A model generated the notes under the pieces. That model was not told the DNA's origin, did no database searches, and worked only from the letters and a program-made list of their open reading frames with translations. A stretch of 64,000 bases of DNA from a virus. The position numbers were made by a program, and so were the translations under genes. Each line of letters opens with the position of its first letter. Position 1 is the stretch's first letter. The DNA is taken from IMG/VR virus record IMGVR_UViG_3300029922_000024, positions 50,497-114,496 of that record; one strand, 5' to 3'. Below, piece after piece: positions 29,849-64,000 of this stretch.

Positions 29849-29866
29849 GTATTAGTCCTTAGATAA

Positions 29867-30331: not shown

Positions 30332-30521
30332 ATTCAAAGAAGGCGATGTAGTAATGGTAAGCACCTGTCAGGCAGGAACGATTTGTGGCTTTATCAATGG
30401 AGTTATGGTTTTGTTGCAAAATAAAGATATTTGGTACGGAAAAGAATCTGAATGCTGGGAACCGACTAGTCCAGAGGAATTAGCAGCCGCAAAATTAGAT
30501 TTCGATCGATTTAAGAAGTAA
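30324..30521 (+). CDS. Small hypothetical protein, 65 aa
   Basis: GTG start overlapping the previous stop by eight bases. The sequence (KFKEGDVVMVSTCQAGTICG) looks like a small SH3/KOW-type beta barrel. Function unknown. Confidence 0.55.
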   Translation: MSKFKEGDVVMVSTCQAGTICGFINGVMVLLQNKDIWYGKESECWEPTSPEELAAAKLDFDRFKK

Positions 30522-30527
30522 AATCAA

Positions 30528-30585
30528 CTATTTACATTTTTACTAACGATATTCTGAAATTTTTGAATATAGCGTTGATAAATAG
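30528..30585. terminator. Inverted repeat between convergent genes
   Basis: CTATTTA (30528-30534) pairs with TAAATAG (30579-30585), and inside it AACGATATTC pairs with GAATAT-A-GCGTT, with a T-rich loop. It lies in the 75-base gap between a + strand gene ending at 30521 and a - strand gene ending at 30597, where a two-way terminator would be expected. Confidence 0.35.
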
Positions 30586-30596
30586 TATATACGTAA

Positions 30597-38800: not shown

Positions 38801-41800
38801 ACCATTCAAAACACTGGTCGTAACATTGGTTTGAGCAACTGCAACTCCGTCAGGTCTTTGCACTGTAAATGAAGTTGAGGTTGGCGCAAATCCTGCAGCA
38901 GTTGAGATCCTGAAAGTTCCAGTATTATTTACATTAAATCCAGTAGAAGGCAATATCGTTACATATTCTCCACCAGACAAAGTAAGTGCTGGAGATGTAC
39001 CGGTTCCACTAAAGGAAAATGAAGAGAAAGTAATGGTGGTATCACCTGTACCACTAGTTTTCGTTAATGTTCCAGAAGCGGGAGGCGCCCCATTAGATCC
39101 GGTAGAAACTAAAGTTGTGCCGCCAGCTATCGTAGTAGTTACAGTAAAGTTTTGGCCGTTGCTACTTACATATGTGGCACCTGCAGTTGCGTTTGCAGAA
39201 CTAACAGTAAAGGTATATTGGCCTGCCCAATTATATGTTACTTGATCGATTCCTGCTGTAGGAGTGTTTGGAGTTATAGTAACATTCCATTTCGTATTCG
39301 AGGAAATATTTGTTGTAATTGGATTTCCAGAAGCCAAACTAATTTGTACACTTACATTGTTTGCTGAAGTAACTGAGATACTAGAATTAATAGCCTGATT
39401 AGCCGAACTTGGATAGACATAAGAAACATTTATATACTCCCCGCTTGCTCCCCAAGCAGTAGATCTATAAAGAAGAGCTGTTTGGGTGTTTGATCCTTGC
39501 AATACATATTTTGCTTGCAATAACGCTTTAAAGTTTGAAAAGTCAAACCCAGTGAAATTGGTAGAAAAGCTAGCAGTTGGTCCAGTTGCGGTGTCGTATG
39601 CATTAAAACTGTAATTGTTTATTGCGTATGTGCTATTTACTAACGCATTTCTATAAAGAGGAAGAGTATAGGTCTCACCAAGGGTATTATTGTCTACAAT
39701 TACAACTACAGAATCGTTATATCCAAAATCCAAAGGATTTGCTATATAAAATCTGTCTGCCACTCTTAATCTACGAACATCTGGGTATTCTGGTAGGATT
39801 GTAATGGCACTTCCAGCCGTTTCTGACATCTGAACGGTTTCACCGGAAGGCTGTTCATCATCAAGAATGGTTCCTGGAACTATTCCGTATGGGTTTAGGA
39901 ATTGAATTAGTTCATTAGGGTCAAAAGAAGATACCGAAATAGCTGAAGAGAAATTGGTTACATAGGTGTCAATCGGTTCAGCATATGAATCAGAACTGAT
40001 TGTTGAATGAAAAAACAAAGGAAGTTCTGCTTGGGCAGACTGAGTCTCATAATATGCAATTAATGCACTTTGACTTACACTATTAAGTCCGCTCTTGAAG
40101 TTTAAAAGAGATCCGGCAGTATCAGAAGTAACTACAGTAATTTGTCCATTTAAGTCATCAGAATTCGAAGTAATGGTAATGTTAGTATTGTCAATAATAT
40201 TAAATTGTAATTGATCGGTTTGAGTTTGTAGTTCAATAGCAATTGCATTCAGTGTTTTGGTTCCTGCTTGAACTCTAAATTTTTGCGGAACATTGCTGGT
40301 TCTTACGACAGCAAAGCCAGAAATATAAGAATTATTTGCAGAAGCAGAAGCTATAGCGTATTCTGCTGCGGTAACTTTAATATCTAAAGTGCTACCAGTG
40401 TTTGCATGAACTCTTCCTTCGAGTTGATCCCCAGACGGTACTTGAGGAGACCAAACAATTACATAGTCTCCCGGTAATACATTTGAGAATGCGGAAGAAG
40501 AATTACTTGTATACCTAACAGTATTTGAGCCTACAAGTGTTACCGACAAGAGAGATCCCGAAATAATAGTCGGTATAAGAACTGCATTTGTATCAATTGA
40601 AATCCATATGTGGGCATCTGACGAAAGCGTTAAGGAGCCTGAAGAAATGGCTGAAGATTCGATATTGGCTTGGGTAACTGGAGTTCCTGCAGACAGAGAA
40701 TCTCCCGCAACTAATGCTGTTACTAATTCAATTTGGGCTGTGTTTCTATCTAATATATAATCCGATGCTACCCCTTTAGAGAAAAGATCGCTAATGCTGA
40801 TGACGCCTTTTGCAATTAAAGAAGTGGGATTTGATGCTGGAGTACTCACTACCAACAGAGTGCCGCCACTAATAGTAACGCCTACGGTAAATGTAGCGCC
40901 ATTATTGGTATAAGTGGCTCCAGCAGTAGCGTTTGTACTGGATACTGTAAAGGCATATTGCCCATCAGATAATTGTAAGAAAGTAGAATAACTAATTGAT
41001 GCGTCTCCACTTCCACTTACTTTAGTAAGCACCCCAGGACCTGTAATTGGGGTGTACAGAGTATTAACGATATTAATCTGAGCTCTATCAATTGCTCCTA
41101 AGTTACTGGTAATTTCAATTGTAGATCCCACAATAGATGCGGTGATGCCGGAAACTACGCTATTTAGAACATTTACCCAAGATTGTAGGCTGTTTGAATA
41201 GGAAAGGGTCGTATAGGTTCCTTCAGCAACAAAGTCGGCATCCGTTAAAGTATAAGTAATAGGGCTCGTTCCATCAACTCCAATACTTAAAGTTTCTCCA
41301 GAAGCTAGAGTAGGAGACCAAAGACTTTGTTCTTGTGTAAAAATTGATGCAGTAGACCCATCTTCTGTTAGGAGTTTACCGTTCTTGTAAAGCCTTAAGG
41401 TTTCTGCTATTTGTGAAGGGAATTCCAAAACAGAGTTTGCATCTGTTACAGAAGAACTTGCGGGAGTTGTGACCTGAATCTTATTTGTGACTTCATCTTC
41501 TGGTCTGATAACTACATATGTTCCGCCACCAGCAGTTACTGCCTCAAAATTAAGTAGTGTATCTGCATTTATGCTTGCGCATACTTCATATGCAGTTGCA
41601 CTACCAGGATTCGCGAAATCGGTAGATGCAAAAGTGTGTTCGTAAGTAATATTACCAACAACAACCGTAAGTACCTCACCGCCAGATAAAGCAAAAGGTT
41701 CTAGCGCTACAGTTTGAAGGAAAGCCTTGGTTACAGAAGTTTGTTCTCCGCCAGTAACCAATTGAAAAAATTTCTCTCCACCTAAAGCTGAGTTTACGAT

Positions 41801-51149: not shown

Positions 51150-53513
51150 TTAATGACTACCCCCAGAAGGACTAGGAGGACCCGCACTTTGCTGATTAGG
51201 TGCTTGGGCGGGTATTCCTAAGAAATTGTTTAATTGAGTTACTGCTTTCGCTCTTTCTACCGCATCGGCGGAAGTATTCATTATTTTTACTAGATTTGCA
51301 ATATTTTGTCCAAATTTATCAAGTGCATCTTTTGTTGGAGCAATCTGAGATTGTAAACTGGAAAATAAATTATTGAAAAGTTTATCTCCCTGAGCTTGAA
51401 TTGCATTCGTAGCATCTCCAGCCCTTCCACCAACGCCTGCTTCTAATTGGGCTTTCTTTGCATCTTCTAGAGCTTTATTTTGCTGTTTTGCATCTCCAGA
51501 CGCCTGTGCGTCAACATAGGCTCCAGCAAAACGGAAGTCTTTTCCTAAATCTGGATTCTCAACCGTTGCATTTATCTCTGCTTGACCCAAAGCAGAACTA
51601 ACTTCTTTTTGTTGATCTTTGGTTAAAGAGGAAGTATCCAAAACAGACTGAAGACCGTATTTTTTCTTAAGATCTTTAAGTTTTTGAATCGATGTGTCAC
51701 TGCTTTTAAATTTATTTTGAGACGCAGCAGTTACTTTATTTGCTTCCTGAATAATTTGCTCAGGACTTATTGGATTTCCAGCCCTAGAAGCATTCTCTGC
51801 CAATTTCTGGACCATAGGGTTATCAACTGTTAATTGATCAATTGGAATATTAAAAAGTGCTGCCCTAGAAAAAGTATCTAACTTATTGAGGACTGGATTT
51901 TTAATGATTCCGGCAGCACGCATTGTTCCGGTTGGACCAGTTTGTTCTACGGATTTTTGTCTATATAGTTCATATGCATTCTGACCAGCCTCGATACCTC
52001 TTGTAGTCTTATCTCCACCAAAGAATTTACCGACTGTACTCAAAATCTGATCTAGGCCCTCAGAACTTGAAGCACCGGATCTATTTACAATGGTTGCAGC
52101 AGATTCAATAAATTTTCTGTTTTCTTCTCTGTATTGGCTACCGTCTAATCCAGTTCTAGTTCCTTCAGCCAATATTTTTATAAATGCGTCTTTTGAGCCA
52201 GTGTCAGATCCAATAGACCCAGAAAGTTTTCCTAATACCTGACTGGCATTCGTAACATCTAAATTTCTTTCGGCTTGAAGTGCCGTAATTGAATTTCCTC
52301 TAGCAGATCTTGTTGATCCACCAGCACCAATGATATTGGATGCCGCCGTTCTTCCCTGTTGATCTGTAAAACCGGCGTCTTCTACTTTACCGTAAAAGCC
52401 TTTACCGCCAAGTCCATATCCATTGCCCCTTAATTCTTCATCGTTTAACCCCAACTGTCTCTGTGTCCCTAAATCGGTCTGATATGTTTGTAGGTACCTG
52501 TTAGCTGCTGCGGTTCTGATCCCTCTTTCTGGACCATTTTTAATGGCATTAAACTGTTCTTCTTGGGCTTGAGCTTGTTCATTTTTCTTTGTTTCTTCAA
52601 ATTCTCTTTGTTGATCTTTAGAACCAAATCGTCCTGCTATTGATCTAAAGGCCTGCATGAAGTTACCATGTTGGAGGGCTCCTGAGCCTTCCTCACCAAA
52701 TATTAAACTTCCAAGCATTCCTTGTGGCGTTTTTGTATTAGCCTTATACCTACCTGCAATTTTATCTTGGGCGTACTGAGCCGCCTGTAATCGATCGGAA
52801 TTGAATGTCAAATCTTCTGCGGCACCACCATTTAAAAGGGAATTAAGTCTTTGACCGCCTTGTCCTTGGGTTTGAAAGGTCTGAGCCTCTATTTCCCTGG
52901 TTCGAAATTGGGATTCCGCAAATACCCTTCTTGTAGCTTCTATTCCTTTAATCCCAGCAACGGCTGTACCGATACCAGCCATTATCATTCCAGGAACGCC
53001 CAAGGCTCCAATGAGACCGGAAAGACTGGTAATACCGCCTTTAGGCATATTGAATGCGCTTCCACCTGCACCGCCAGCGCCGCCTGGGGAAGGCGTCTTG
53101 CCGCCTTTAGGATTTAAGGACTGCTGAAGGCGATCTCTAGTCTTTAGAATGGAATTGTAGTCTTCTTCTGCCTTATTGCGCTCCCTTGTCCAATAAGCCT
53201 TTTCTTTTTCGTTCTTAACGGATTCAACTTCTTTTCTTGAAATCTCTTCTAGTTTTCTTTTTTTGTCGTCTAATGCCCTATTAGCGATCTGAACAGCTTG
53301 CTGATCAAGCCTAGTAGATTTCTCTTTAGATCTTGTAGACTCTAGATTCTCCCTAAATACATCTGAAGAGGTCTTTTCGGCAGCGTTTTTGGATGAAGTC
53401 GAGCCAAGTTTTAACTTATCTGCATCCCCTTGAATCTTTTTGATTAATGTCGAAAATGCCTTCTCAAGTTCTGAGGTATCCGCACCAATTTTAAGTTTTG
53501 TTTCTAATGACAT
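51150..53513 (-). CDS. Probable tail tape-measure protein
   Basis: A 787-residue protein with a helical N-terminus (heptad-rich, Lys/Glu, residues 1-135), a Pro/Gly hinge, a hydrophobic Gly/Ala segment near 165-195 (GGITSLSGLIGALGVPGMIM) and then long helices with few aromatics. Such a charged coiled coil with an internal hydrophobic segment, upstream of hub and spike, fits a tape measure. At about 0.15 nm per residue it would set a tail of some 120 nm. An alternative is another long helical virion protein. The unit has a late motif 37 bases before the ATG. Confidence 0.65.
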   Translation of the reverse strand: MSLETKLKIGADTSELEKAFSTLIKKIQGDADKLKLGSTSSKNAAEKTSSDVFRENLESTRSKEKSTRLDQQAVQIANRALDDKKRKLEEISRKEVESVKNEKEKAYWTRERNKAEEDYNSILKTRDRLQQSLNPKGGKTPSPGGAGGAGGSAFNMPKGGITSLSGLIGALGVPGMIMAGIGTAVAGIKGIEATRRVFAESQFRTREIEAQTFQTQGQGGQRLNSLLNGGAAEDLTFNSDRLQAAQYAQDKIAGRYKANTKTPQGMLGSLIFGEEGSGALQHGNFMQAFRSIAGRFGSKDQQREFEETKKNEQAQAQEEQFNAIKNGPERGIRTAAANRYLQTYQTDLGTQRQLGLNDEELRGNGYGLGGKGFYGKVEDAGFTDQQGRTAASNIIGAGGSTRSARGNSITALQAERNLDVTNASQVLGKLSGSIGSDTGSKDAFIKILAEGTRTGLDGSQYREENRKFIESAATIVNRSGASSSEGLDQILSTVGKFFGGDKTTRGIEAGQNAYELYRQKSVEQTGPTGTMRAAGIIKNPVLNKLDTFSRAALFNIPIDQLTVDNPMVQKLAENASRAGNPISPEQIIQEANKVTAASQNKFKSSDTSIQKLKDLKKKYGLQSVLDTSSLTKDQQKEVSSALGQAEINATVENPDLGKDFRFAGAYVDAQASGDAKQQNKALEDAKKAQLEAGVGGRAGDATNAIQAQGDKLFNNLFSSLQSQIAPTKDALDKFGQNIANLVKIMNTSADAVERAKAVTQLNNFLGIPAQAPNQQSAGPPSPSGGSH

Positions 53514-53550
53514 TGTGAAGACCCCAGATTAAAATTAGACCCTTATAAGA

Positions 53551-53558
53551 TAAGATTG
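53551..53558 (-). promoter_or_regulatory. Late motif CAATCTTA, copy 7
   Basis: On the - strand: TTAAACCGTCAATCTTATCTTATAAGG. It lies 37 bases before the tape-measure start. Its flank AAACCG(T/A) is shared with copy 6. Confidence 0.6.
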
Positions 53559-53587
53559 ACGGTTTAACCTTTACTTACTTATATCAC

Positions 53588-53616
53588 TTGACCTCAACCT
53601 TTAAATAGGGTATAAA
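53588..53616 (+). promoter_or_regulatory. sigma70-like promoter, leaderless type
   Basis: TTGACC (53588-53593), 17-base spacer, TATAAA (53611-53616). The predicted start at 53623 is the A of the next ATG. Confidence 0.7.
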
Positions 53617-53622
53617 TATAGT

Positions 53623-53856
53623 ATGGCTAAAAAGACCAAAAAACCCAAAAAGGTCGTAAAAAAGACAAAAGAAAACAAAAATACTAAGGAAATTAAGTAC
53701 TTAGAAAGATTAATTGAGTTAAGTTTGAGGAATGTTACTGGCAAATCAGAAGAATTAGATAAGTTATTCACGAATCAGGCCAATAGGATGAAGGAGCAGA
53801 TTATTAAATTAGAAGCAAATATCTATTTTAATAAGTGTTTTCTTGAAATTAAGTGA
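53623..53856 (+). CDS. Small Lys-rich protein, 77 aa
   Basis: The first 25 residues are almost all Lys, Thr and Pro (KKTKKPKKVVKKTKENK), then a helical stretch follows. A nucleic-acid-binding role is likely from charge alone. It leads a + strand unit with a strong leaderless promoter. Confidence 0.65.
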   Translation: MAKKTKKPKKVVKKTKENKNTKEIKYLERLIELSLRNVTGKSEELDKLFTNQANRMKEQIIKLEANIYFNKCFLEIK

Positions 53857-53862
53857 TATATT
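53854..53862 (+). promoter_or_regulatory. Extended -10 promoter, leaderless type
   Basis: TGATATATT. The hexamer TATATT (53857-53862) is six bases before ATG 53869. No convincing -35. It overlaps the stop of the preceding gene. Confidence 0.4.
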
Positions 53863-53868
53863 AATTTT

Positions 53869-54156
53869 ATGCATGACGACGATTACGATGATGATTGTTT
53901 TGACGCTTTTAGGTATCTCTTGGGAAGTCTTAATGATGATATTAAAGATGATTCAGAAGAATACCCTCGAATGGTTGGTATGAGTAAGTGGCTACAATTA
54001 GAAGCTGAAGCCGCTACTGCCAATATTTTTCCAGATGTTGGGGTAGATTGGGCTCGCATGGAACCAGAAGCCAGGACCTGTTCCCACGAATGGGCGATCT
54101 ATCAGGGACTAAATGAAAAATATGAATTTTGTAAGAAGTGCGATGAGAAAAAATGA
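53869..54156 (+). CDS. Small acidic protein with CxxC, 95 aa
   Basis: Starts with an Asp/Tyr-rich run (MHDDDYDDDC) and ends EFCKKCDEKK. A single CHxxW / CKKC set near the C-terminus may bind zinc. Its stop overlaps the dUTPase ATG by four bases (ATGA). Confidence 0.6.
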   Translation: MHDDDYDDDCFDAFRYLLGSLNDDIKDDSEEYPRMVGMSKWLQLEAEAATANIFPDVGVDWARMEPEARTCSHEWAIYQGLNEKYEFCKKCDEKK

Positions 54157-54617
54157 GAGTTAAAATTAAAAAATTGCATCCAGATGCCATCATACCAAAA
54201 TACGCAACTCCAGGCGCTGCCGGTTTTGACTTGGTTGCCATTGAAGATGTAGCTATCGAACCTAGCACTACGGTTCTGATTAAAACAGGACTATCTTTTG
54301 AAATACCGGAAGGCTACGAACTTCAAATTCGCCCACGATCTGGGACGTCTTTAAGAACACCTCTTAGAGTAGCAAATAGTCCAGGAACTGTTGACGCCGA
54401 TTATCGCGGAGAAGTTTGTGTGATTATGTCTAACATTCAAGTACATCCATCATACAGTGCTGGGCTATATGGTGTAAGTTTAGCGCAATACATTAACAAG
54501 GGTGATCGTATTGCTCAAGGCGTTATCTGTCCAATTATTCAAGGTTCGTTTGTTGAAGTCGAAGAGTTAAACAATACCCAGCGTGGTGCGGGTGGATTTG
54601 GGAGTACTGGGGTATGA
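54153..54617 (+). CDS. dut: dUTPase (trimeric)
   Basis: The 154-residue enzyme has all five dUTPase motifs in order: PGAAGFDL, RPRSGTSL, GTVDADYRGE with the catalytic Asp, GDRIAQGV, and the C-terminal arm RGAGGFGSTG. It turns dUTP into dUMP and pyrophosphate, keeping uracil out of phage DNA and feeding thymidylate synthesis. It overlaps neighbours on both sides by four bases. Confidence 0.95.
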   Translation: MRVKIKKLHPDAIIPKYATPGAAGFDLVAIEDVAIEPSTTVLIKTGLSFEIPEGYELQIRPRSGTSLRTPLRVANSPGTVDADYRGEVCVIMSNIQVHPSYSAGLYGVSLAQYINKGDRIAQGVICPIIQGSFVEVEELNNTQRGAGGFGSTGV

Positions 54618-54871
54618 CATCTAGAGATTTTGCATATTGGCTCCAGGGTTTCCTTGAGGTTTCTAATCCTACACATATAGGAGAAAATGAAACCACTATT
54701 ATTAAAAATCATCTAAATATGGTTTTTAAGCACGAGATCGATCCTTCTCATGGCGATAAAAAGCATCAAGAAGAATTGAGTAAAATTCATCAGGGATCCT
54801 CATTGCCAATTTCTGACGAAATGCGTCGCGTGCTGCAATCTGGGATTATCGAAGCTAAATTTAACTGTTAA
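54614..54871 (+). CDS. Conserved-looking phage protein, 85 aa
   Basis: Begins SRDFAYWLQGFLEVSNPTHI, a pattern seen in many small phage proteins of unknown role. Helical, no metal motif. It overlaps the dUTPase stop. Confidence 0.6.
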   Translation: MTSRDFAYWLQGFLEVSNPTHIGENETTIIKNHLNMVFKHEIDPSHGDKKHQEELSKIHQGSSLPISDEMRRVLQSGIIEAKFNC

Positions 54872-54880
54872 GGAAATCAT

Positions 54881-55105
54881 ATGCCCAAAGCAATACTGGA
54901 ATTTAATTTACCAGAAGAAAAGGAAGAGTTTGAGTCAGCCAAAAATGGTGGGTGTTATAAACTTGCTCTTTGGGATCTAGACCAATACCTAAGAGGTATC
55001 TTAAAATACAATAGTGATGCTCATGACCAAAAAACAATCGACGAATTACAAAATACAAGAAATAAACTTCATGAGTTTCTTCACGATTACGATTTGAGTT
55101 TATAA
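54881..55105 (+). CDS. Conserved-looking phage protein, 74 aa
   Basis: Opens KAILEFNLPEEKEEFESAKN and continues with a LxxLDxxLR helix, a pattern common in small phage proteins with no assigned role. AAGGAAAT precedes the ATG. A TATAAA overlaps its stop and may serve the RNA that follows. Confidence 0.65.
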   Translation: MPKAILEFNLPEEKEEFESAKNGGCYKLALWDLDQYLRGILKYNSDAHDQKTIDELQNTRNKLHEFLHDYDLSL

Positions 55106-55110
55106 AAAAT

Positions 55111-55311
55111 TTGCGGCTGCGTGGAAAGCTAGTTAGGTACTGGAAGAGTCGTGCGCTCCAGTTTAAGATAGAAATACGCCTACGAGAGACACGCCTAATA
55201 TATCTAAGGCTGGAGCCTTATTGTGCGTTGGACGATAATCTGAACGCATCGAGTGCAGGGTAGATACTGCATAGGTAAACATCCAGAGTGGGATTTGCGC
55301 CCCACCCGCAA
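55111..55311 (+). ncRNA. Structured RNA, copy B of a three-copy family
   Basis: The closing stem is TTGCGG/CCGCAA (55111-55116 with 55306-55311). Stem two is GCGTG/CACGC (55119-55123 with 55190-55194), flanked by GAAAGC and AGAGA as in copies A and C. Stem three is TAGG/CCTA, stem four ACTGGA/TCCAGT. Then come hairpins AAGGC/GCCTT, TGCGTT/AACGCA and TGCAG/CTGCA, a CAGAGT element, and a terminal GTGGG/CCCAC hairpin just before the closing stem. A TATAAA ends five bases before the closing stem. No ORF fits the region. The convergent 57-residue gene ends three bases after it. Confidence 0.72.
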
Positions 55312-55313
55312 TA

Positions 55314-55487
55314 TTAATTCTTGTTTTTTTCGTAGATCTTAACTTCTTCTTTTATTATCTGACGACCTTTTTGTCGTTCTTTTCTATTAGCTTTACGCAC
55401 ATCTTTTAGGGTACTATAGCCGTCTGTAGCCATTTCTATGGCTTGCTTACACCGTTTAGCGGTCTTTAGGGTATCTATCTTTGCCAT
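55314..55487 (-). CDS. Small basic protein, 57 aa
   Basis: ATG 55487 is preceded by AAAGGATAG. The frame reads MAKIDTLKTAKRCKQAIEMA and continues with a Lys/Arg-rich helix to a TAA at 55314. Probably nucleic-acid-binding by charge. Last gene of the - strand block that begins at 58997. Confidence 0.6.
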   Translation of the reverse strand: MAKIDTLKTAKRCKQAIEMATDGYSTLKDVRKANRKERQKGRQIIKEEVKIYEKNKN

Positions 55488-55524
55488 AACTATCCTTTAA
55501 ACGATACATAAAGAGGCTTTTGTG

Positions 55525-55791
55525 TCATTTAATCGCTTCATAATAAGATTCTGGCGCACCAATAAATTCAGTGTATCTGTAAAATTTTATAAGTCTATCG
55601 ATTATCACGATCAATTCTGGCGTAAAACCAATATCTTCACCTAAATAGAAAGCTACCACCACGCAGGGGCACCCAGTACTTGTGGCGCAAACCGAAATTG
55701 CACTCCCAAGATCGTAACTCACCTTATGTGTTTTGTAAAATTTTTGTACAAAATTCTTATTTACGATGTACCTATTTAGGTCTATCTTCAT
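55525..55791 (-). CDS. Hypothetical protein, 88 aa
   Basis: A small protein with CATSTGCPC in the middle, which may be a metal or disulphide site, and hydrophobic strands around it. No family recognised. Confidence 0.55.
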   Translation of the reverse strand: MKIDLNRYIVNKNFVQKFYKTHKVSYDLGSAISVCATSTGCPCVVVAFYLGEDIGFTPELIVIIDRLIKFYRYTEFIGAPESYYEAIK

Positions 55792-55801
55792 TTACGAAAC
55801 C

Positions 55802-55966
55802 TTACATGTTATTTTCTAGACCAAATTTTTTTATTATAGGGTTTGGAGTATCAAGATTTTTCTGTATCTCAGTCATGTTCTTGATTATTGCTTTAATTGT
55901 AAAAAATCCCAATAATATCCATACCAAACATAATACTAGCCTAGGAGTATTCCCACTTCTATTCAT
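55802..55966 (-). CDS. Small membrane protein, 54 aa
   Basis: I start it at ATG 55966, which overlaps the stop of the preceding gene. One membrane helix (LVLCLVWILLGFFTIKAII) follows a short polar N-terminus. Confidence 0.5.
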   Translation of the reverse strand: MNRSGNTPRLVLCLVWILLGFFTIKAIIKNMTEIQKNLDTPNPIIKKFGLENNM

Positions 55967-56294
55967 ATTCAAAACCCAAACCAATCATTGCCTTTAGTGC
56001 AAATGGATTTTCTTTAAGATCGGAAATCAAATGCGTAAATATAGGATCCTTTTCCATTTCACAAAGTACGGGGGCCATAAAATATCCTGGGCTGTGGTCG
56101 GCAGCAAATTTTAGATATTTTTCACCTTCTTCTTCCATATCCATGGCAAAATAATCATGGGCAACTGAAGTCATACATTTAGAGTATGCAAGATGTGGCA
56201 AAGCATCTTTGTTGAGAATGAGATAGTCCAATAGAACACCTAGTTCTTTTATGAGATCCTCATGGTCTTGTGGGATATCGCCGTATGTTTTCAT
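55959..56294 (-). CDS. Hypothetical protein, 111 aa
   Basis: A helical acidic protein (DIPQDHEDLIKELGVLLDYL). It shares a one-base junction with the previous gene and overlaps the next, as in a tight operon. Function unknown. Confidence 0.6.
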   Translation of the reverse strand: MKTYGDIPQDHEDLIKELGVLLDYLILNKDALPHLAYSKCMTSVAHDYFAMDMEEEGEKYLKFAADHSPGYFMAPVLCEMEKDPIFTHLISDLKENPFALKAMIGLGFEYE

Positions 56295-56512
56295 TAAAGA
56301 AATTTAATTTCCCCAGAAATGTTAGTAATACAAAAATCTAAATAGGTTCCAGTGTATCTGCCTTCTTTATCGTATTGAGCATTGAATTCCCTAAAAAAGG
56401 TTTCCATATCTTCCAATGAATAGAATTTCCTCATAGCGGGAGTGGCATCCTCGACATAATATACGACATGATAAGGTTTACTTTTGGTTTTTTTAGTGGC
56501 CTTCTTTTTCAT
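56294..56512 (-). CDS. Hypothetical protein, 72 aa
   Basis: ATG 56512 follows GGAGAGAACA and lies inside the end of the HAD gene. Lys-rich start, then a beta/alpha fold with YHVVYYVEDATPAMRKFYSL. No motif recognised. Confidence 0.55.
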   Translation of the reverse strand: MKKKATKKTKSKPYHVVYYVEDATPAMRKFYSLEDMETFFREFNAQYDKEGRYTGTYLDFCITNISGEIKFL

Positions 56513-56981
56513 TGTTCTCTCCAAATTTTTGAATTACTTTTTCTGCATCGGAAAATGTAAGTCCGTTCTTGCTATCTATTTGTACTAACCTGTCTATAAA
56601 GGGCGCTAAGTCTGTTCCGTCATCAATAATTACAAAATTTGTAATTTCTGGATGGTACTTTAAATAAAGAGCGATCTCGTGGCCTCTATATCCATTTTCC
56701 AAAACTGGGGTTACGCCAACAATAAAGGATCCTGAAATATGGTACTGGTCAAACATTTCTTGCAGAGCTTCTATGGTGTAGTGTTTTCTCCAACTAGAAG
56801 TGATAACTATTTCGACTTTGGGGACTTCTTCTAAAATATATTGAAGATTTGACATCGCAACTGGATCAAGAACTTTAGAACTAACGGTATTCGTTAAACC
56901 CAACAAATTCAAACGATTATTACAAATCATCGAACTAACTGAAACTAGGACCCCATCGATATCGACAAAGAGGGCTTTCAT
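56493..56981 (-). CDS. HAD-family phosphatase (RNA-repair type)
   Basis: The 162-residue protein has the HAD motifs: FVDIDGVL with Asp7 and Asp9, VITSSWRKH (motif II Thr/Ser) and FVIIDDGTDL (motif IV acidic pair). The size and order fit the stand-alone HAD domain often found in phage RNA-repair clusters, where it trims 3' phosphates. Two genes upstream is a YcgL-type nucleotidyltransferase and 5 kb upstream an Rnl2-type ligase, which supports this reading. A nucleotidase role is the main alternative. Confidence 0.75.
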   Translation of the reverse strand: MKALFVDIDGVLVSVSSMICNNRLNLLGLTNTVSSKVLDPVAMSNLQYILEEVPKVEIVITSSWRKHYTIEALQEMFDQYHISGSFIVGVTPVLENGYRGHEIALYLKYHPEITNFVIIDDGTDLAPFIDRLVQIDSKNGLTFSDAEKVIQKFGENNEKEGH

Positions 56982-57145
56982 ACTCTAAATACCTTAATGG
57001 TTCCACAATATCTACATTTACTGACCAACTTACGAGCCACGGGACGTTTCGTGCTTATCTCTTGATCAAATATGTCTATGGAATCCATAGTATGGAATCT
57101 ATGTGGACAGAAAAACAGTCTTAAAATTTTGTATAGATACTTCAT
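56978..57145 (-). CDS. Small zinc-ribbon protein, 55 aa
   Basis: The frame from ATG 57145 reads MKYLYKILRLFFCPHRFHTM and ends KCRYCGTIKVFRV. A CPH pair near the start and CxxC near the end give a typical small phage zinc ribbon. Start and stop each overlap the flanking genes by four bases (ATGA), which makes a chance frame unlikely. Confidence 0.72.
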   Translation of the reverse strand: MKYLYKILRLFFCPHRFHTMDSIDIFDQEISTKRPVARKLVSKCRYCGTIKVFRV

Positions 57146-58152
57146 TTGATCTCTCTTTTTACTTCATCAGAATAAACATGGTAAACGAAATCCTTGATCC
57201 ATTCAAGATCTGGTTTTGCTCGAAGAGTAGAAGTCTTTTCTACCTCGACCAATTCTTCTAGGCCAGAAGTAATCATTTCAGATACTTGTTCGAATGGCAG
57301 TTGTTCGGTCTTGATCTTAATTAGCAATTCCGCATCTGGACGAGGGAATGTGATATTTCCAGTACGAAGAAGTTCTAGGCCTTCACTGTTTACTCGAACA
57401 GCATGGGAAAGAGCCTTAAAACATACTCCACCGGCAATATTTGCCTTGCGTGAACGAGATCCGTACTCTGCATAGATTCGACTAACAATGTCTAAAGCGT
57501 CTTTTGCTCTAATTGCCATGGGAATAAAGCGACCACAAATTTTTAGGTGAGGTTGATTCATTTCGCCTTTAGGGTCTGGTTTCATTACCATTTCTATAAG
57601 CGGCGTTTTTTCGAGATTAACCAACGATTGCGTATGGTAAATTAAATCAAGAATTCCTTTTTCGTGATCTCTTAATCTGTCATATGGAGGAAAGGTTTCT
57701 AAGGAACCGATAGCCATTTTAAGGGCATCCATGCGAGTACCTTTTACGCCATACTTTGCAGCTTGTTTACGAGCATATCCAATGAAGGCATTAACATTCT
57801 TAGAAATAATTTTCTCTTTATTATCCCGAATTGTTTTGAAGATGTACCAGTTAGCGGGGTTCTTTGCCGTAAACATTTCGTCTGGGGAGAAGATCATATC
57901 AAGGGCCATGGTCTGGCCTTCTGCGAATAATTTTAAAAATTGATCAACCGAGAAAATCTCAATATCTACATCGTCCTTACTATTGCGCTCTCCATGGGCC
58001 TTCTTTCGACTCATGTTTACCGTTTTGTGGTAGTCGTTTAATACGATTTGACGGCCCGTAGGCAAATAAATGGACTTAAAATCGAGATCAGACTTTGGAG
58101 TAGTTGTTCCGTAAAGAGCCGACCCAAATTTCAACTCAAAAAGCTTATTCAT
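57142..58152 (-). CDS. Nucleotidyltransferase of the YcgL/RNA-repair family
   Basis: The 336-residue protein has the nucleotidyltransferase signature GSALYGTTTPKSDLDFKSIY at residues 10-29: the GS, then Asp22 and Asp24 that bind the metal. A third acidic residue (DVDIEIFSVDQF) follows. This matches COG3541-type predicted nucleotidyltransferases that occur with RNA ligases in phages. It likely adds or restores nucleotides at RNA ends. It is flanked by four-base overlaps. Confidence 0.82.
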   Translation of the reverse strand: MNKLFELKFGSALYGTTTPKSDLDFKSIYLPTGRQIVLNDYHKTVNMSRKKAHGERNSKDDVDIEIFSVDQFLKLFAEGQTMALDMIFSPDEMFTAKNPANWYIFKTIRDNKEKIISKNVNAFIGYARKQAAKYGVKGTRMDALKMAIGSLETFPPYDRLRDHEKGILDLIYHTQSLVNLEKTPLIEMVMKPDPKGEMNQPHLKICGRFIPMAIRAKDALDIVSRIYAEYGSRSRKANIAGGVCFKALSHAVRVNSEGLELLRTGNITFPRPDAELLIKIKTEQLPFEQVSEMITSGLEELVEVEKTSTLRAKPDLEWIKDFVYHVYSDEVKREIK

Positions 58153-58779
58153 TTATCCTCTTCCTGGAGTATCCGATGGTAGACCAAGATATTCCCGCCA
58201 ATCAACCCATCTACGAGTATTTGGCTTAACGATATTTCCATTAATAGCAACACCATCATTTAGGGTTTTAATAAAACCCCAATCTCGCTTAGTACGACCA
58301 GTAAAACAAAAAGTTAATGGAGCAAATTCTTTTTCGTTTAATCTATAAGAATGATCGGTTAGAACCTGATGCTGATCTGTTGCTTTTCTCCAAACAAATC
58401 TATTTTTTGCTACTGGATATGTTTTGATATCATCCATCAACCTTGTAGAGTTTCCAGAAGTTCTTGTAAAAATTAAAGAATTTGCTCCAGACTGTCTGCG
58501 TGTTAATTCTACTTCTTTTGTCTGAGGATTAAATTTCTTTTCTGTATAAGCACCACGAACCAAGTAGGTACAGAAATCCCAAGGATGATCGTGTAGATCG
58601 TCCCGATCAGAACGTAAAAATTGATGGATAAAGAAATTAAAATACTTTGATTTGATTACATAGTATCGGATTAGATAAACGTCCTGCGGGCCTCCAGTAC
58701 CAGTAATACGAAGTGTCTTACTTCTTTTTTCACAATAGGACATTAACTTGTTGGCAACAAAAAGAGTTAAATTATTCAT
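58153..58779 (-). CDS. Cupin-fold protein, 208 aa
   Basis: Start ATG 58779 overlaps the stop of the next gene upstream. The metal-site motif is DDLHDHPWDF with two histidines, followed by TYLVRGAYTEKKF, the first cupin motif with its Glu. A second histidine appears in ATDQHQVL. This fits a small cupin dioxygenase or isomerase-like protein. Substrate unknown. Confidence 0.7.
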   Translation of the reverse strand: MNNLTLFVANKLMSYCEKRSKTLRITGTGGPQDVYLIRYYVIKSKYFNFFIHQFLRSDRDDLHDHPWDFCTYLVRGAYTEKKFNPQTKEVELTRRQSGANSLIFTRTSGNSTRLMDDIKTYPVAKNRFVWRKATDQHQVLTDHSYRLNEKEFAPLTFCFTGRTKRDWGFIKTLNDGVAINGNIVKPNTRRWVDWREYLGLPSDTPGRG

Positions 58780-58997
58780 TTTGTACACTTCTTTAGCTCA
58801 TCGCCTTTAAAAGATTCTGGAACAATTGAACCCTTACAATCCAAATCTACATCGTATACCGGTGGATCTACTTGGATCTGATGTTCTACTGTGCCTTTAC
58901 ATCCTTCATAAAAACCTTTGGTTACAACTACACAATCCTTGAAATGGAATGGTGTCGATAACATAGTGGCCAACATAAGAACGAAATTAGTATTCAT
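58776..58997 (-). CDS. Small exported protein, 73 aa
   Basis: A 15-20 residue hydrophobic start (NTNFVLMLATMLSTPFHF) looks like a signal peptide. The mature part has four cysteines and an SH3-like GFYEGCKGTV turn. TAGGAG precedes the ATG. It is the first gene behind the strong promoter at 59018-59046. Confidence 0.6.
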   Translation of the reverse strand: MNTNFVLMLATMLSTPFHFKDCVVVTKGFYEGCKGTVEHQIQVDPPVYDVDLDCKGSIVPESFKGDELKKCTK

Positions 58998-59017
58998 CAT
59001 ATAGAACTCCTATCTAA

Positions 59018-59046
59018 AATATATCAAAAAAATATTGTTAAGTCAA
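59018..59046 (-). promoter_or_regulatory. Strong sigma70-like promoter
   Basis: On the - strand: TTGACT, 17-base spacer, TATATT with an extended -10 TGA. Its hexamers are identical to those of the structured-RNA copy C promoter. Predicted start near 59011, with a 13-base leader carrying TAGGAG. It abuts the ribonucleotide reductase stop and drives the small-gene block from 58997 down to 55314. Confidence 0.75.
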
Positions 59047-60672
59047 TTACAAACCACATACGCCATTAAGACAACCATTTTCAGTTTCTTCAAAAACTTT
59101 TCCTTCGTCAGCCAAAGCTTCTTCCAGAGAGCATCTGGTTAATGGCTGTCCACCGCGAGCACCATCTGGGTATACCGTAAACCCACGTAACCGCTTGGCA
59201 TACTTGAGTAATGTCGCCGCATTCTTTTCATAATTGTCTTTGTTATTAGTAGAAGATCCCCAACTTTCCATGTTGCAAGTACTAGAAATGGACATATCAA
59301 CATAATTTTGGACATCGGCTTGAAACTTAACTCGTTGTTTGAAAGTAAGATCTCCGGCATCTTTGATATTTTCAACCTTAATACCCTGTTCTAGAAGTCT
59401 TTTGACCGATCCATCAACAACATATTGGTACATCCATTTACCTTCTTTGAAGTAACGGCGTTTATAGGCCTTACAGAATAGTGGTTCAATACCAGTAGTG
59501 GTCTCTGCAATGATGCCAATCGTGCCTGTTGGAGCGATTGCGCGAACGCCCTTAGGAACAGATACCCCTAATTGTTTAGCTCCCATAAAAGCCGCTGAAT
59601 CGCTTTCTTGCTCGTATACGGATAGAAGTTTATGAAGTTCTGGTGTTACCTCATATTCCTGACCCTTGGCCATAAGCCATTCATGGATTCCACCTAATCC
59701 CAAACCGATTCGATTGTTTTTCAGTCCAATTTCTCTGATCTTATCGGTTGGAACATCACTGTACATACCCCCACAAAGGAGAAAGAGAGTGGAAAGTTTG
59801 GTGCTTTCTGCTAGATCCCTCTTATCTTTCATGCGATTAAGCCAAAGAGTTCCTAGATTACACTTGTCAGAATCATCTTCGCTGACTACTTCAGTACAGG
59901 CATTACGAAGAGATTCGTTATCTTTCCTGAAATTGAAACTCATTCCTGGTTCTGCAGTAGAGAAAGCTTGAAAGCAATTATCAAGCCATACTTTCTTGGT
60001 TAATTCGTGTTTTGGGTGTTCTGGATTCTCAATAGCAATAAAAAATTCTGTATTATAGACTACAGAAATGTTGGTTAGCTCCATAGGAAGCGGAAAATTA
60101 AGGTCTGCTAACTTAGCCGCCTTAAGAGCGTCGGAATAATCCTTAAGGTGCATAAATTTAAAGACATCTGGGTGAGACCATTCTAGGCCTGCCCAAATAG
60201 CAGATCTACGTTGTCCGCCTTGCATAATGTAACGGCCACCCTCATTTACCATATTCATTAAAGCTATAGGACCCGTAGAGCGACCCCCAGTACGTCTGAT
60301 AATTTCCCCTTCAGATCTAAGTTTTGAATATTCTACTCCAATTCCTCCACCGGTCATAAGGGAGGAAGTGACTTTATGTTGTATCTCTGCCCAAGATTCT
60401 CGACTATCTTCTGCCCTAAATAAAAAACAATTGTTTACCTGATGGAATTCTCTTCCAGCAGAATAAAGATAGCGACCTCCAGGAATAAATTTCCTTTCGA
60501 GGATCATATTGTAAATCTTTTCTTTGGTTTTACTGTCTAGAAGTTGAGAACACACAGCTTCCGTAACTCGTTTGGAGGTATCAGCCCATGTCTCTACTCC
60601 ATCTTTAGAGTATTTCTGTAAATAAATATCTTGTGCCCATTTAGCGGAAAAAACATCGAACGCATTCTTCAT
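59047..60672 (-). CDS. nrdJ: Class II (B12-dependent) ribonucleotide reductase
   Basis: The 541-residue enzyme has the adenosylcobalamin-type layout: HQVNNCFLFRA with the first redox Cys, GGGIGVEYSKLR, the substrate loop NACTEVVSEDDSDKCNLG that carries the thiyl-radical Cys and the second redox Cys, APTGTIGIIAETTTGIEPLF, and the C-terminal CLNGVC shuttle pair. The length matches the compact monomeric or single-chain phage forms, and no NrdB is nearby. It makes deoxynucleotides and needs host or scavenged B12. With dUTPase it secures dNTP supply. No B12 riboswitch is seen upstream. Confidence 0.9.
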   Translation of the reverse strand: MKNAFDVFSAKWAQDIYLQKYSKDGVETWADTSKRVTEAVCSQLLDSKTKEKIYNMILERKFIPGGRYLYSAGREFHQVNNCFLFRAEDSRESWAEIQHKVTSSLMTGGGIGVEYSKLRSEGEIIRRTGGRSTGPIALMNMVNEGGRYIMQGGQRRSAIWAGLEWSHPDVFKFMHLKDYSDALKAAKLADLNFPLPMELTNISVVYNTEFFIAIENPEHPKHELTKKVWLDNCFQAFSTAEPGMSFNFRKDNESLRNACTEVVSEDDSDKCNLGTLWLNRMKDKRDLAESTKLSTLFLLCGGMYSDVPTDKIREIGLKNNRIGLGLGGIHEWLMAKGQEYEVTPELHKLLSVYEQESDSAAFMGAKQLGVSVPKGVRAIAPTGTIGIIAETTTGIEPLFCKAYKRRYFKEGKWMYQYVVDGSVKRLLEQGIKVENIKDAGDLTFKQRVKFQADVQNYVDMSISSTCNMESWGSSTNNKDNYEKNAATLLKYAKRLRGFTVYPDGARGGQPLTRCSLEEALADEGKVFEETENGCLNGVCGL

Positions 60673-60716
60673 CTTGTTGTACCTATATTATTGTTTTGAA
60701 ACTAAACTGTTATTTG

Positions 60717-60872
60717 TTATCTGTGGTAAGTGTATAAGTTGCCCTTTTTATCGTTTACGGTTCTGCAATCGTCACATCCAACAAAAGTATTATCGCTTAA
60801 CCATATGGTGGTCGGACAATGAAATCTAAATAAGCAATGAAAGTGCCATTTAATTCGATATAAAAACAACAT
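60717..60872 (-). CDS. Small zinc-ribbon protein, 51 aa
   Basis: From ATG 60872, six bases past the previous stop. The sequence has HFHCLFRFHCP and CDDC, a zinc-ribbon pattern like that of the 55-residue protein at 56978. Ends at 60717. Confidence 0.5.
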   Translation of the reverse strand: MLFLYRIKWHFHCLFRFHCPTTIWLSDNTFVGCDDCRTVNDKKGNLYTYHR

Positions 60873-60878
60873 CTTATA

Positions 60879-61160
60879 TTACTCTTTATTTTGAAGAATT
60901 TTAAGCGTATCCGCTTTTAAATTATCTCCTAAAATACGCAAATTTTCAAGAAGTAATCGAGAAAAACAAAATCCAGCAGAAAAACTCATAACAAATGTGA
61001 ATACTTTAGAGTGTACATAAAATGCGTCCACAAATACAACCAAGAAATTGGCAAAAAGCAATAACAGGAAGATCTTGAGTGTCAATGCTCCTACTTTAAA
61101 ATAAAATTTCTTATTTATTACTTTTAAGTTTTTCTTCTGCTCTTCTGTAAAACCGTTCAT
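60879..61160 (-). CDS. Membrane protein, 93 aa
   Basis: Two hydrophobic helices (LTLKIFLLLLFANFLVVFVD and VFTFVMSFSAGFCFSRLLL) with charged ends. Overlaps the next gene by four bases. Could be holin-like by shape but lacks context for that. Confidence 0.6.
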   Translation of the reverse strand: MNGFTEEQKKNLKVINKKFYFKVGALTLKIFLLLLFANFLVVFVDAFYVHSKVFTFVMSFSAGFCFSRLLLENLRILGDNLKADTLKILQNKE

Positions 61161-61411
61161 GATACGGCCTCAAAAATGGTTTTGTATGTGTCTATAGACA
61201 AAATATCTATGGGCAGTGTGGAATGCGATGAATGTAATGTGACTACGCGATACTCTTTAATTGCCTCTACTCCAGCAATTCTTTCTTTGGCAACCGCCCT
61301 TTTGTTAAATTGATCATACGAATCTTTGTCTAACAAAATGTATTTTGGAGATCGACCGTTTTTAATCATGTATTGGTAAACTAACTCTTCAACATCTTCC
61401 ATACTTATCAT
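61157..61411 (-). CDS. Hypothetical protein, 84 aa
   Basis: I start it at ATG 61411, one base past the preceding stop, since the longer frame would overlap that gene. Charged, mixed alpha/beta (EDVEELVYQYMIKNGRSPKY). Function unknown. Confidence 0.55.
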   Translation of the reverse strand: MISMEDVEELVYQYMIKNGRSPKYILLDKDSYDQFNKRAVAKERIAGVEAIKEYRVVTLHSSHSTLPIDILSIDTYKTIFEAVS

Positions 61412-61412
61412 A

Positions 61413-61604
61413 CTACTTACCCTTCTTCTTGTTATGCGCTTCAAGAATTTTTTTAATATACTTATCTACTTTTTGTGGATCACATCGTTCTTCTACTAAG
61501 ATCTCTGTAAATCTATCGAAAGCTTCCTGTACATCAGAAAGTTCAAGCATTTCCACTAAAAAATACTGCTCTTCCTTTGATAAGAAGAACCTATCTGAAC
61601 TCAT
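61413..61604 (-). CDS. Hypothetical protein, 63 aa
   Basis: A helical acidic protein ending in a Lys tail. The start overlaps the stop of the membrane micro-gene upstream by ATGA. Confidence 0.55.
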   Translation of the reverse strand: MSSDRFFLSKEEQYFLVEMLELSDVQEAFDRFTEILVEERCDPQKVDKYIKKILEAHNKKKGK

Positions 61605-61729
61605 TTTTTACCGCCATGGTGTAAGATCAATTTCGGTTTTCTCTTTTTCTTCTTAAAAATAAAACTAAGTCCAATTAACGTAAAGGAAAAAAGAGGAATC
61701 AATAAAAAGCAAAAGATTACTATGTTCAT
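61601..61729 (-). CDS. Small membrane protein, 42 aa
   Basis: From ATG 61729, after AGAGGG. It reads NIVIFCFLLIPLFSFTLIGL, then a Lys/Arg-rich tail. One membrane helix with positive cytoplasmic end. Stop overlaps the next ATG (ATGA). Confidence 0.55.
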   Translation of the reverse strand: MNIVIFCFLLIPLFSFTLIGLSFIFKKKKRKPKLILHHGGKK

Positions 61730-61747
61730 TGAACCCTCTAAAATTGC

Positions 61748-62611
61748 TTATTTGATATTCATTGCGTGCTTAGTTTCAATTTCACTTTGGATGAATCTGA
61801 ACAGTTGTCCGCCCATAGTTTTAGTCATTCCCTTTACTTCTGCATCTGTTCCTGTGATCTGACCTTCTTTGATCAAATCCGCAATGTAGTCTTTAGTAAT
61901 CTGTGGAAGGGATTTAGGGTAACCAGTTAAATAGCGCTCATCTTTTGAAAGAAGTTTTTCGAGACGAATAGGTTGTAAGAGATGAGATACGTCGATTTTA
62001 GGCTTAGTATTTTCTCCAGAATTCCCCTTCTTGGGTTTTCCAGTCCATTGGGTTTCTTCTTCCTCAAATACAACTTTATATCGCTCGTCTTTAATACGAA
62101 CGACAACGCCTTCTGGGTGCATGAATCCAGAACTAAGTTTAGAGCCATTTGTTTTGAGTTCATCCATTGCAATTTGGACTTGATTGAGATCAATTGGACC
62201 CTCATAAAGAACTGGCACAAGAACGGTTCGTGGTGGAAGCGGCTTATCTTTATAACGATAATAGTCAAAAAGAACGAAAACTTTTTGTTCTAAACCTTCT
62301 CCTGAGTTAATGCCCTTGCCAGCCCATTCGCCATCATGACGACCTTCTCCAAGAAGGTCGATGAAAGCCTGCTTGTTTGCGTAAACATGTGTGGCGAAAT
62401 TGTAGTTATCATCGCCAGGAACTATGAATCGTGTGCGTGATCCACATGCAAGATCGAATCCATCTTCTACCTGCATAGAACCAACGCCATCGTGGACATC
62501 TTTAAATTTACGGTAAACAAGAATGTGAGCATTTGTACCATGAATCTTTTGCGTGATTGACATGACTACCGAACCTAATTTTTTAATTTCTGGGAAAGCT
62601 TTAAATTCCAT
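61748..62611 (-). CDS. Rnl2-type RNA ligase
   Basis: The 287-residue ligase has the nucleotidyltransferase motifs: Lys22 in KIHGTN (motif I, the AMP-accepting lysine), GSRTRF, GEWAGKGI (motif III), HPEGVVVRI (motif IV) and YKVVF (motif V). The HGTN after the lysine is typical of Rnl2. A C-terminal helical domain of about 90 residues follows. It seals nicked or broken RNA. I start it at ATG 62611, with GGAGAAT before it. Structured RNA copy C lies directly upstream, so read-through would place both in one transcript. Confidence 0.87.
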   Translation of the reverse strand: MEFKAFPEIKKLGSVVMSITQKIHGTNAHILVYRKFKDVHDGVGSMQVEDGFDLACGSRTRFIVPGDDNYNFATHVYANKQAFIDLLGEGRHDGEWAGKGINSGEGLEQKVFVLFDYYRYKDKPLPPRTVLVPVLYEGPIDLNQVQIAMDELKTNGSKLSSGFMHPEGVVVRIKDERYKVVFEEEETQWTGKPKKGNSGENTKPKIDVSHLLQPIRLEKLLSKDERYLTGYPKSLPQITKDYIADLIKEGQITGTDAEVKGMTKTMGGQLFRFIQSEIETKHAMNIK

Positions 62612-62629
62612 AATTCTCCTAAATATAAA

Positions 62630-62669
62630 CCCGTCACCACATGAAACCCATTTTAAGGCGCGTGACGGG
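62630..62669 (-). promoter_or_regulatory. Hairpin in the RNA ligase leader
   Basis: On the - strand CCCGTCAC pairs with GTGACGGG (eight pairs) around a 24-base loop, followed by TTTATATTT and then the ribosome binding site. It could attenuate, protect or block translation of the ligase mRNA. A further short CATGG/CCATG pair lies upstream. Confidence 0.45.
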
Positions 62670-62714
62670 CGCTCATGGAAAAGGTTAATGGTCAATCCCA
62701 TGAACAAAAATTTC

Positions 62715-62877
62715 GTGACAGGTCAGTCGCTACTCTGACAAGGATACTACTAGGGCTACCCAATGTATTGTCTGCTCCCGTTCATTCCTAAATCCTACAT
62801 TTAGATCTGCGTGTCTCTTAGTTTCTGGGGCGTCACGTCCAGTAAAGACTCAAACTGCTTTCCACGCCGCTGTCACT
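62715..62877 (-). ncRNA. Structured RNA, copy C of a three-copy family, with own promoter
   Basis: On the - strand the closing stem is GTGACAG/CTGTCAC (62870-62876 with 62715-62721). Stem two is GCGTG/CACGC (62863-62867 with 62809-62813), flanked by GAAAGC and AGAGA. Stem three is AGTTT/AAACT, stem four CTGG/CCAG, then CTAAAT/ATTTAG, a CAGAGT element and a GTCAG/CTGAC hairpin beside the closing stem. The promoter upstream predicts a start at 62877, one base before the closing stem, so a stand-alone transcript is likely. AAATTTTTG follows the closing stem and may end some transcripts. Confidence 0.75.
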
Positions 62878-62883
62878 TCATAG

Positions 62884-62912
62884 AATATATCGTTAATTAG
62901 TACGCAAGTCAA
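62884..62912 (-). promoter_or_regulatory. sigma70-like promoter of structured RNA copy C
   Basis: On the - strand: TTGACT (62907-62912), 17-base spacer, TATATT (62884-62889). The same hexamers and spacing occur at 59018-59046. Predicted start at 62877. Confidence 0.75.
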
Positions 62913-62913
62913 T

Positions 62914-62949
62914 ACTAAAAAGCCCCCTAAAAATTAATTTAGGAGGCTT
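62914..62949 (-). terminator. Rho-independent terminator of the ice-binding protein gene
   Basis: On the - strand AAGCCTCCTAAA pairs with TTTAGGGGGCTT (12 pairs, one G-U) around TTAATT, then runs into TTTAG. It begins about 29 bases past the stop at 62979. Confidence 0.75.
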
Positions 62950-62978
62950 GGATACGGAGGAATTTGGAGGTCTAAGGA

Positions 62979-64000
62979 TTATGAACTAACTGCAACATCG
63001 TCGAGAGTAACTGCGGTCTGAGCATAAATACCTGTTCCGTGATATGTAGAAGTAGTCTGCATTGCCACGTTTGTACTGGCCAATATTGTTCCTCTGAATA
63101 CGCTTGATACCCCAGCGGTTACGGATCCAGCAACAGCCCACATTACATTTGAAGCTTGTGCTCCGCCAGTCATTACGATCTGAGCAGAACTAGCTAAATT
63201 CAAGGTAGAAGAACATTGGAATACCCAAGTGTCGTTCACGCCACCGTTTAAGGTTAACGTTCCGGTAATAGAAGTTGGTACGGTTAATTTGTATAATCCT
63301 GGAGCGAGAGTTAAACCACCAAGAGCACCTGCGCCTGGATTGGTTTGTGTAGGAGTAGTAAGTCCTTGAGCATTTGTGTAAGCAGTAGTCATATTAGCAA
63401 CTGCAGTGGTAAGGTTAGCAGGTGTTGGAGCACTGTAATCTGCTGCGAAGATATGTCCAGTTACATTTGGAGCAGTAGAGAATTGACCAGAACCATCTAA
63501 GGTGAGTGTGAAGCCAGTAATTGCTGTGTGAGCGATTGGGGAAACACCCATTTCGCCAGTAACTGCAGATCCTGAAGTATCACTGATACCACTTTCTGAC
63601 AAAATTCTATATGCAGAAGCTGCTCCAAGACTTGGAAGAGCTGGTCCTAATGCACTAATGGTATAAGCAGCACTTCCAACGGCAGAGTTGCTCAATCCAG
63701 CCTTTACAGCTAAAACCTTAAGAGTTTCAGATGCATTGATCAGAATTGGACCTGCATATGCAGTACTTCCAGTAGTTGGGGTTGATCCATCAAGAGTGTA
63801 GTAAAATAATGCGCTAGAAGTAAGGGAAGAAACGGTAACCATTTGGCTACCAGCATAAGTTCCGGCTACAGGAGAGAAAGTTGGAGTTGCAACTTGACTT
63901 CCACCGATAATGTAGGCTGCTCCATTTACGATAGAGTTAGCAAATCCGTTTTTGATAGCAATAGCATTAACTTGTTCACTTGCACTAACAGTAATAGGAG
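62979..64000 (-). CDS. Ice-binding (DUF3494) domain protein with chitobiase-C repeats, partial
   Basis: The frame stays open to the window edge, so the start lies beyond 64000 and at least 339 codons are visible. From the edge, the end of one chitobiase-C-type repeat is seen (VSASEQVNAIAIKNGFANSI), then a full second copy (TPTFSPVAGTYAGSQMVTVS, FYYTLDGSTPT, LKVLAVKAGLSNS). The last 200 residues are a DUF3494 ice-binding domain: LGAASAYRILSESGISD, SAVTGEMGVSP, LTLNGGVNDTWVFQ, ASNVMWAVAGSVT, FRGTILASTNV and GTGIYAQTAVTLD. That domain folds as a right-handed beta-solenoid and binds ice or, in other proteins, acts as an adhesin. As a phage gene it is probably a fibre or surface protein. Confidence 0.87.
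   Translation of the reverse strand, partial: PITVSASEQVNAIAIKNGFANSIVNGAAYIIGGSQVATPTFSPVAGTYAGSQMVTVSSLTSSALFYYTLDGSTPTTGSTAYAGPILINASETLKVLAVKAGLSNSAVGSAAYTISALGPALPSLGAASAYRILSESGISDTSGSAVTGEMGVSPIAHTAITGFTLTLDGSGQFSTAPNVTGHIFAADYSAPTPANLTTAVANMTTAYTNAQGLTTPTQTNPGAGALGGLTLAPGLYKLTVPTSITGTLTLNGGVNDTWVFQCSSTLNLASSAQIVMTGGAQASNVMWAVAGSVTAGVSSVFRGTILASTNVAMQTTSTYHGTGIYAQTAVTLDDVAVSS

Follow-up and report, generated by a model that had tools for sequence, protein, structure and literature searches.

The 64,000-nucleotide stretch analyzed here (the window) makes up the final 64 kb of a virus record that is linear and 114,496 bp long, and positions 62979-63998 of its minus strand contain a 339-amino acid open frame that runs off the contig end. 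The 5′ end of this gene, which encodes a DUF3494 domain, is absent because the contig stops there, in agreement with a preliminary description of the sequence that had placed the gene start outside the window. When IMG/VR was scanned with this fragment, the complete gene was identified on IMGVR_UViG_3300029914_000011 (L006:9314-11161, plus strand). It encodes a 615-amino acid protein, P0001, and the open frame in the window corresponds to the C-terminal 339 of these 615 residues. The contig with the complete gene and window positions 52982-64000 share 100% identity over 11 kb. A third contig, 3300029922_001797 (L009), encodes an identical copy of the N-terminal 275 residues of P0001 and stops one base short of the window's contig. 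A chimeric contig as the source of the gene was ruled out, since the overlapping contigs agree letter for letter. Circular permutation, in which the missing 5′ end would be located at the other end of the contig, was rejected as well; P0001 had no match in the first 20 kb of the record (L002). The P0001 gene is preceded by a good ribosome-binding site, aaggagaaaaaaccATG, and a terminator-like hairpin, with a 12-bp stem followed by TTT, is located 29 bases past the stop codon (window 62920-62949, minus strand; L006:11191-11220). The hairpin was identified by a consensus match only, and matches of this kind are also expected by chance (mean of 2.0 in shuffled sequences). The DUF3494 gene is real and intact. 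The same phage also codes for a peptide deformylase, the gene of which (L006:7594-8094, plus strand) is about 1.2 kb upstream of the DUF3494 gene, and for a tmRNA (L006:3064-3464, plus strand), which lies past the end of the window and has the tag peptide AELDSQDSLYEEYEELQAA.

The record belongs to a large tailed phage and codes for a UvsX-like recombinase, a DnaB-like helicase, a ribonucleotide reductase, an RNA ligase and baseplate proteins, as well as for a portal, a terminase, a major capsid protein and a GroEL-like chaperonin. The tail sheath gene was found on a companion contig (L013). The assignment of the gene to a phage, made at first from the window sequence, was borne out, and an origin in host DNA ruled out, by the record's genes for replication and for the capsid, portal, baseplate and terminase. 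Over its full length, the capsid protein shares 46.5% identity with its counterpart in Myxococcus phage Mx1 (OR576727, 169.6-kb genome), which suggests that the host of the window phage is perhaps a myxobacterium. Several of the metagenome identifiers presumably belong to northern peatland series; a search of the literature for the IMG identifiers turned up no relevant paper. The chaperonin gene (L003:9239-11026, minus strand; record positions 29239-31026) adjoins the terminase and portal genes, and a chaperonin-like open reading frame is also found close to the capsid gene of another locus, L149.

P0001 consists of a helical region (residues 1-90), a beta module (residues 122-224), two chitobiase-C (Ig-like) repeats (residues 236-299 and about 319-383) and, at the C-terminal position, a DUF3494 domain (residues 408-613). 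Three of these elements are represented in the minus strand of the window: the tail of the first chitobiase-C repeat (63930-63998), truncated by the contig end and recognized through a domain search of the complete protein; the second repeat (63678-63872), a Pfam match to CHB_HEX_C_1/Fn3_assoc; and the DUF3494/Ice_binding domain (PF11999; 62988-63605), identified by its Pfam match and by homologues of known structure. Comparison of the 339-amino acid fragment with Pfam resulted in matches to Ice_binding PF11999 (E 6e-60, profile positions 1-207 of 208), CHB_HEX_C_1 (E 8.5e-19) and Fn3_assoc (E 9.5e-15). When the complete P0001 was used, the match to PF11999 covered the same profile positions (1-207 of 208) with an E-value of 2.5e-59 and a score of 200.9 bits, against a curated cut-off of 28.7. 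The full DUF3494 domain and the tandem chitobiase-C repeats of the preliminary description were therefore both recovered, and extension past position 64000, which had been suggested there, added the helical N-terminal domain and the beta module. The N-terminal half of P0001 was modeled with a mean pLDDT of 85. A Foldseek comparison of the N-terminal model with solved structures produced nothing significant, P0001 had no PHROG match, and the N-terminal domain likewise matched nothing in PHROG or PDB. Inspection by eye of the N-terminus of P0001 did not reveal an obvious signal peptide.

Structure prediction, also proposed at the outset as a check, generated an AlphaFold2 model of the DUF3494 part that matches DUF3494 crystal structures (a beta-solenoid with a bracing helix) with TM-scores on the target of up to 0.84; residues 432-465 of the model are of low confidence. 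Among solved structures, the nearest are those of ice-binding proteins from Candidatus Cryosericum odellii (9lhs, 50% identity, TM-score of 0.83 on the target) and Flavobacterium frigoris. P0001 has the whole domain in common with DUF3494 type 1 ice-binding proteins (9lhs; FfIBP, 4nu2/4nu3; TisAFP8, 5b5h), at about 42-51% identity, and is predicted to adopt the same discontinuous beta-solenoid with a helix and to present comparable b-face residues. However, known DUF3494 ice-binding proteins are typically secreted by cells, while the domain in P0001 forms the C-terminal portion of a phage protein in which a signal peptide is not evident.

The beta module of P0001 is also present in baseplate proteins. 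One paralogue (window 36851-37159, minus strand; 50% identity, E 1e-24) was found within P0002, a giant baseplate-wedge protein of 2390 amino acids (35888-43060, minus strand), and a second one (34477-34803, minus strand; 39% identity, E 9e-17) within the adjoining 646-amino acid protein (33946-35886, minus strand). P0002 is built of recurring beta modules, the number and kind of which vary between close relatives. While P0002 does not include DUF3494, its orthologues in the genomes G005, G008 and G009, mostly 59-80% identical per aligned segment, hold one or two inserted copies of the domain, at up to two positions. The genome G006 has two further copies, one in a 2287-amino acid protein and the other in a 932-amino acid baseplate relative. 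These insertions suggest that virion proteins in this group use DUF3494 as a movable display domain.

PF11999 genes in phages have been interpreted in a different way. One report describes PF11999 ice-binding-like genes, thus of the same Pfam family as the domain of P0001, on three Arctic marine vOTUs and links homologues to a Synechococcus phage (PMC11515562); another describes, in Southern Ocean viruses, one gene named there only as an antifreeze protein (PMC8407431); host protection was the reading in both. According to this published interpretation, P0001 would be the product of an auxiliary gene, a soluble ice-binding protein that shields the host cell during infection. We consider this improbable for P0001. 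A secretion signal is not evident by eye, the protein is fused to a module common to baseplate proteins, and in most relatives the gene adjoins capsid genes. Furthermore, the copies that reside within baseplate proteins of 2,200-2,900 amino acids cannot act as free or secreted cryoprotectants, which makes the auxiliary-gene reading a poor fit here. The same domain that elsewhere was read as a means of host cold-protection is here part of probable virion proteins, repeatedly and at various positions. The phage PF11999 genes themselves are already published and what is new here is the virion context of DUF3494: the virion fusions, the baseplate insertions and the capsid-linked slot described below go unmentioned in the available portions of PMC11515562 and PMC8407431, and a literature search found no paper naming both "DUF3494" and "phage".

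A scan of viral contigs for DUF3494 yielded 16 loci, ten of which (near-identical copies counted) code for the N-terminal domain of P0001. These ten proteins include from zero to three chitobiase-C repeats, and some of them have another Ig-like segment. The lipoprotein-type viral matches (L024 and L026-L029) were left out as bacterial-type genes. A separate scan with the N-terminal domain alone also identified 16 loci, and DUF3494 was present in every one with a complete gene. The idea that the N-terminal domain always carries DUF3494 was nonetheless dropped when a more sensitive profile detected 21 short relatives lacking it. In three of the loci, L033, L034 and L035, a divergent DUF3494 is nested inside the beta module and followed by a chitobiase-C repeat; another one, L037, is rearranged. 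DUF3494 is found, then, at two positions within one protein family, C-terminal or nested in the module. In the tree of N-terminal domains P0001 clusters with L033-L035 (92/93); a topology that unites the nested-type members was rejected (AU p 0.0045). In the DUF3494 tree the phage domains of the C-terminal type fell into one clade (SH-aLRT 100), far from the nested type, whose exact position is unsure because of long branches. Cultured phages with a similar DUF3494 were not found at the thresholds used.

That DUF3494 copies come and go, and do so at differing positions, is what would be expected if the rigid solenoid were a neutral structural filler without a ligand, an insertion tolerated in loops of virion proteins. 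This explanation seems unlikely given the single, conserved phage clade of the C-terminal type (SH-aLRT 100), with its intact b-face, and the recruitment of two distinct DUF3494 subfamilies to the same protein family.

The location of the gene was compared in 14 phages. It adjoins the scaffold-capsid genes in ten of them, and eight of these ten have it downstream of the capsid gene and on that gene's strand. The gene has moved out of the capsid neighborhood in the window phage and in L033-L035, and therefore it is from the relatives that we infer docking to the head. A capsid scan identified 79 related loci, and PF11999 was detected in 12 of the 49 Mx1-like records searched, with one to five copies in each. 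On the capsid tree, the presence or absence of DUF3494 takes seven changes, at least five of them forced by well-supported branches, although losses may be overcounted because some records are fragments. In relatives that lack DUF3494 the slot is mostly filled by a short protein that shares the N-terminal motif but has a different C-terminus. A search of 3,683 open reading frames from capsid loci with a profile of the N-terminal domain produced, at E-values up to 1, the 21 matches without DUF3494 mentioned above, nearly all of them short and with the same motif. Two of the short relatives scanned match a head-fibre PHROG weakly (E about 0.003), and one that has a fibronectin-like part shows a similarly weak match to Hoc-like PHROGs (E about 0.003). 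Sister phages with and without DUF3494, such as L164 and L186, differ at the capsid-linked slot.

This arrangement resembles that of the Hoc-type head decoration and head fibre proteins of T4-like phages, which have in common with P0001 and its family a likely location in the head cluster, Ig-like repeats, a variable displayed domain, and presence in some phages but absence in their close relatives. Unlike in Hoc, the displayed domain of P0001 is DUF3494, and the N-terminal domain of P0001 has no significant match to Hoc. Myxococcus phage Mx1 has a capsid like that of the window phage, but its genome lacks DUF3494 and has no match to the N-terminal family of P0001.

We propose that P0001 is probably a virion-displayed fibre or decoration protein, an adhesin with a swappable DUF3494 tip. 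The surface-type protein envisaged in the preliminary description is now backed, at the level of sequence comparison, by the module common to baseplate proteins, the capsid synteny in relatives and the presence of DUF3494 in baseplate orthologues. The helical N-terminal domain of about 90 residues would dock on the particle, most likely on the head, and the beta module together with the two Ig-like chitobiase-C repeats would serve as a stalk. At the tip, the DUF3494 beta-solenoid would then hold the particle on a surface. We infer from the comparisons above that the protein is present on the particle, that it docks on the head and that its role is adhesion.

The ligand is the least certain part of the adhesin proposal. 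Ice is plausible and is the leading single candidate, but as the true ligand it can be put forward only tentatively and stands about level with the polysaccharides of hosts or particles taken together. If ice is the ligand, its adsorption might keep virions with their hosts in unfrozen films, or shield them through freeze-thaw. The published positions of the TisAFP ice-binding site (PMC7966756) were mapped onto all DUF3494 domains. The outward sheet positions of the P0001 b-face are 83% T/S/A/G/V/N and 6% charged, like those of FfIBP, and cellular DUF3494s average 78% and 10%, respectively. This composition is compatible with ice binding but fits an average cellular DUF3494 as well, and it does not discriminate. 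It was consequently discarded as proof of ice binding.

DUF3494 proteins had initially been described as known mainly from cold-adapted organisms, which turned out to be too narrow: the domain is reported to occur also in substrate-binding and adhesion proteins (PMC12337378), and homologues of the P0001 domain are encoded by saline-soil haloarchaea (49% identity) and by many groundwater and lake bacteria. Therefore, membership in the family does not imply ice. P0001 could instead be a virion adhesin for a biological surface, in which the solenoid binds polysaccharide or slime of host cells or soil particles, as the Ig-type domains of Hoc and tail fibres do, and ice plays no part. We regard this as a serious possibility, its chances falling somewhat short of even. 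Besides the substrate-binding proteins and the haloarchaeal, groundwater and lake homologues, it is favored by the closest cultured relative being a phage that infects Myxococcus and by the presence of DUF3494 in the baseplate, a usual site of host binding. On the other hand, the nearest solved relatives are ice-binding proteins, and the b-face retains the small, Thr-rich make-up of ice-active members. Unrelated positions also converge on one domain, a weak indication of a constant ligand, which ice fits better than variable receptors. The idea that a lineage of large Mx1-like phages makes ice-binding virions, which would carry DUF3494 on an exchangeable fibre linked to the head, and in some of these phages on the baseplate too, and would ride on ice surfaces or survive freeze-thaw there, is one that we hold with considerable doubt.

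Attachment to ice through an adhesin has a cellular counterpart. The ice-binding domain of MpAFP, a protein of Marinomonas primoryensis, has an RTX-type fold. According to two reports, this domain is part of a long adhesin that tethers the cell to ice (PMC3492233, PMC5014055). The concept, a particle anchored to ice, is alike, but MpAFP is a bacterial cell-surface adhesin with a non-DUF3494 domain and is not part of a virion. If the P0001 domain binds ice, the virions themselves would be the ice-active agent, an extracellular trait that would add a new layer to the ecology of phages in frozen soils. Otherwise, DUF3494 would be a general adhesive solenoid, and annotations of virome genes as "ice-binding" would need caution.

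Some of the remaining viral matches to DUF3494 are of other kinds. The viral contigs L026-L029 code for apparently secreted lipoprotein-type DUF3494 proteins that form one clade, and may be cargo genes or host DNA. The DUF3494 of L024, a short contig classified as viral, is identical to that of L051, a Polaromonas genome contig, and L024 probably represents bacterial DNA or the edge of a prophage. In the unrelated viral contig L030 (positions 9731-10864), a DUF3494 is nested in another protein resembling a phage structural module, which suggests a further independent recruitment of the domain.
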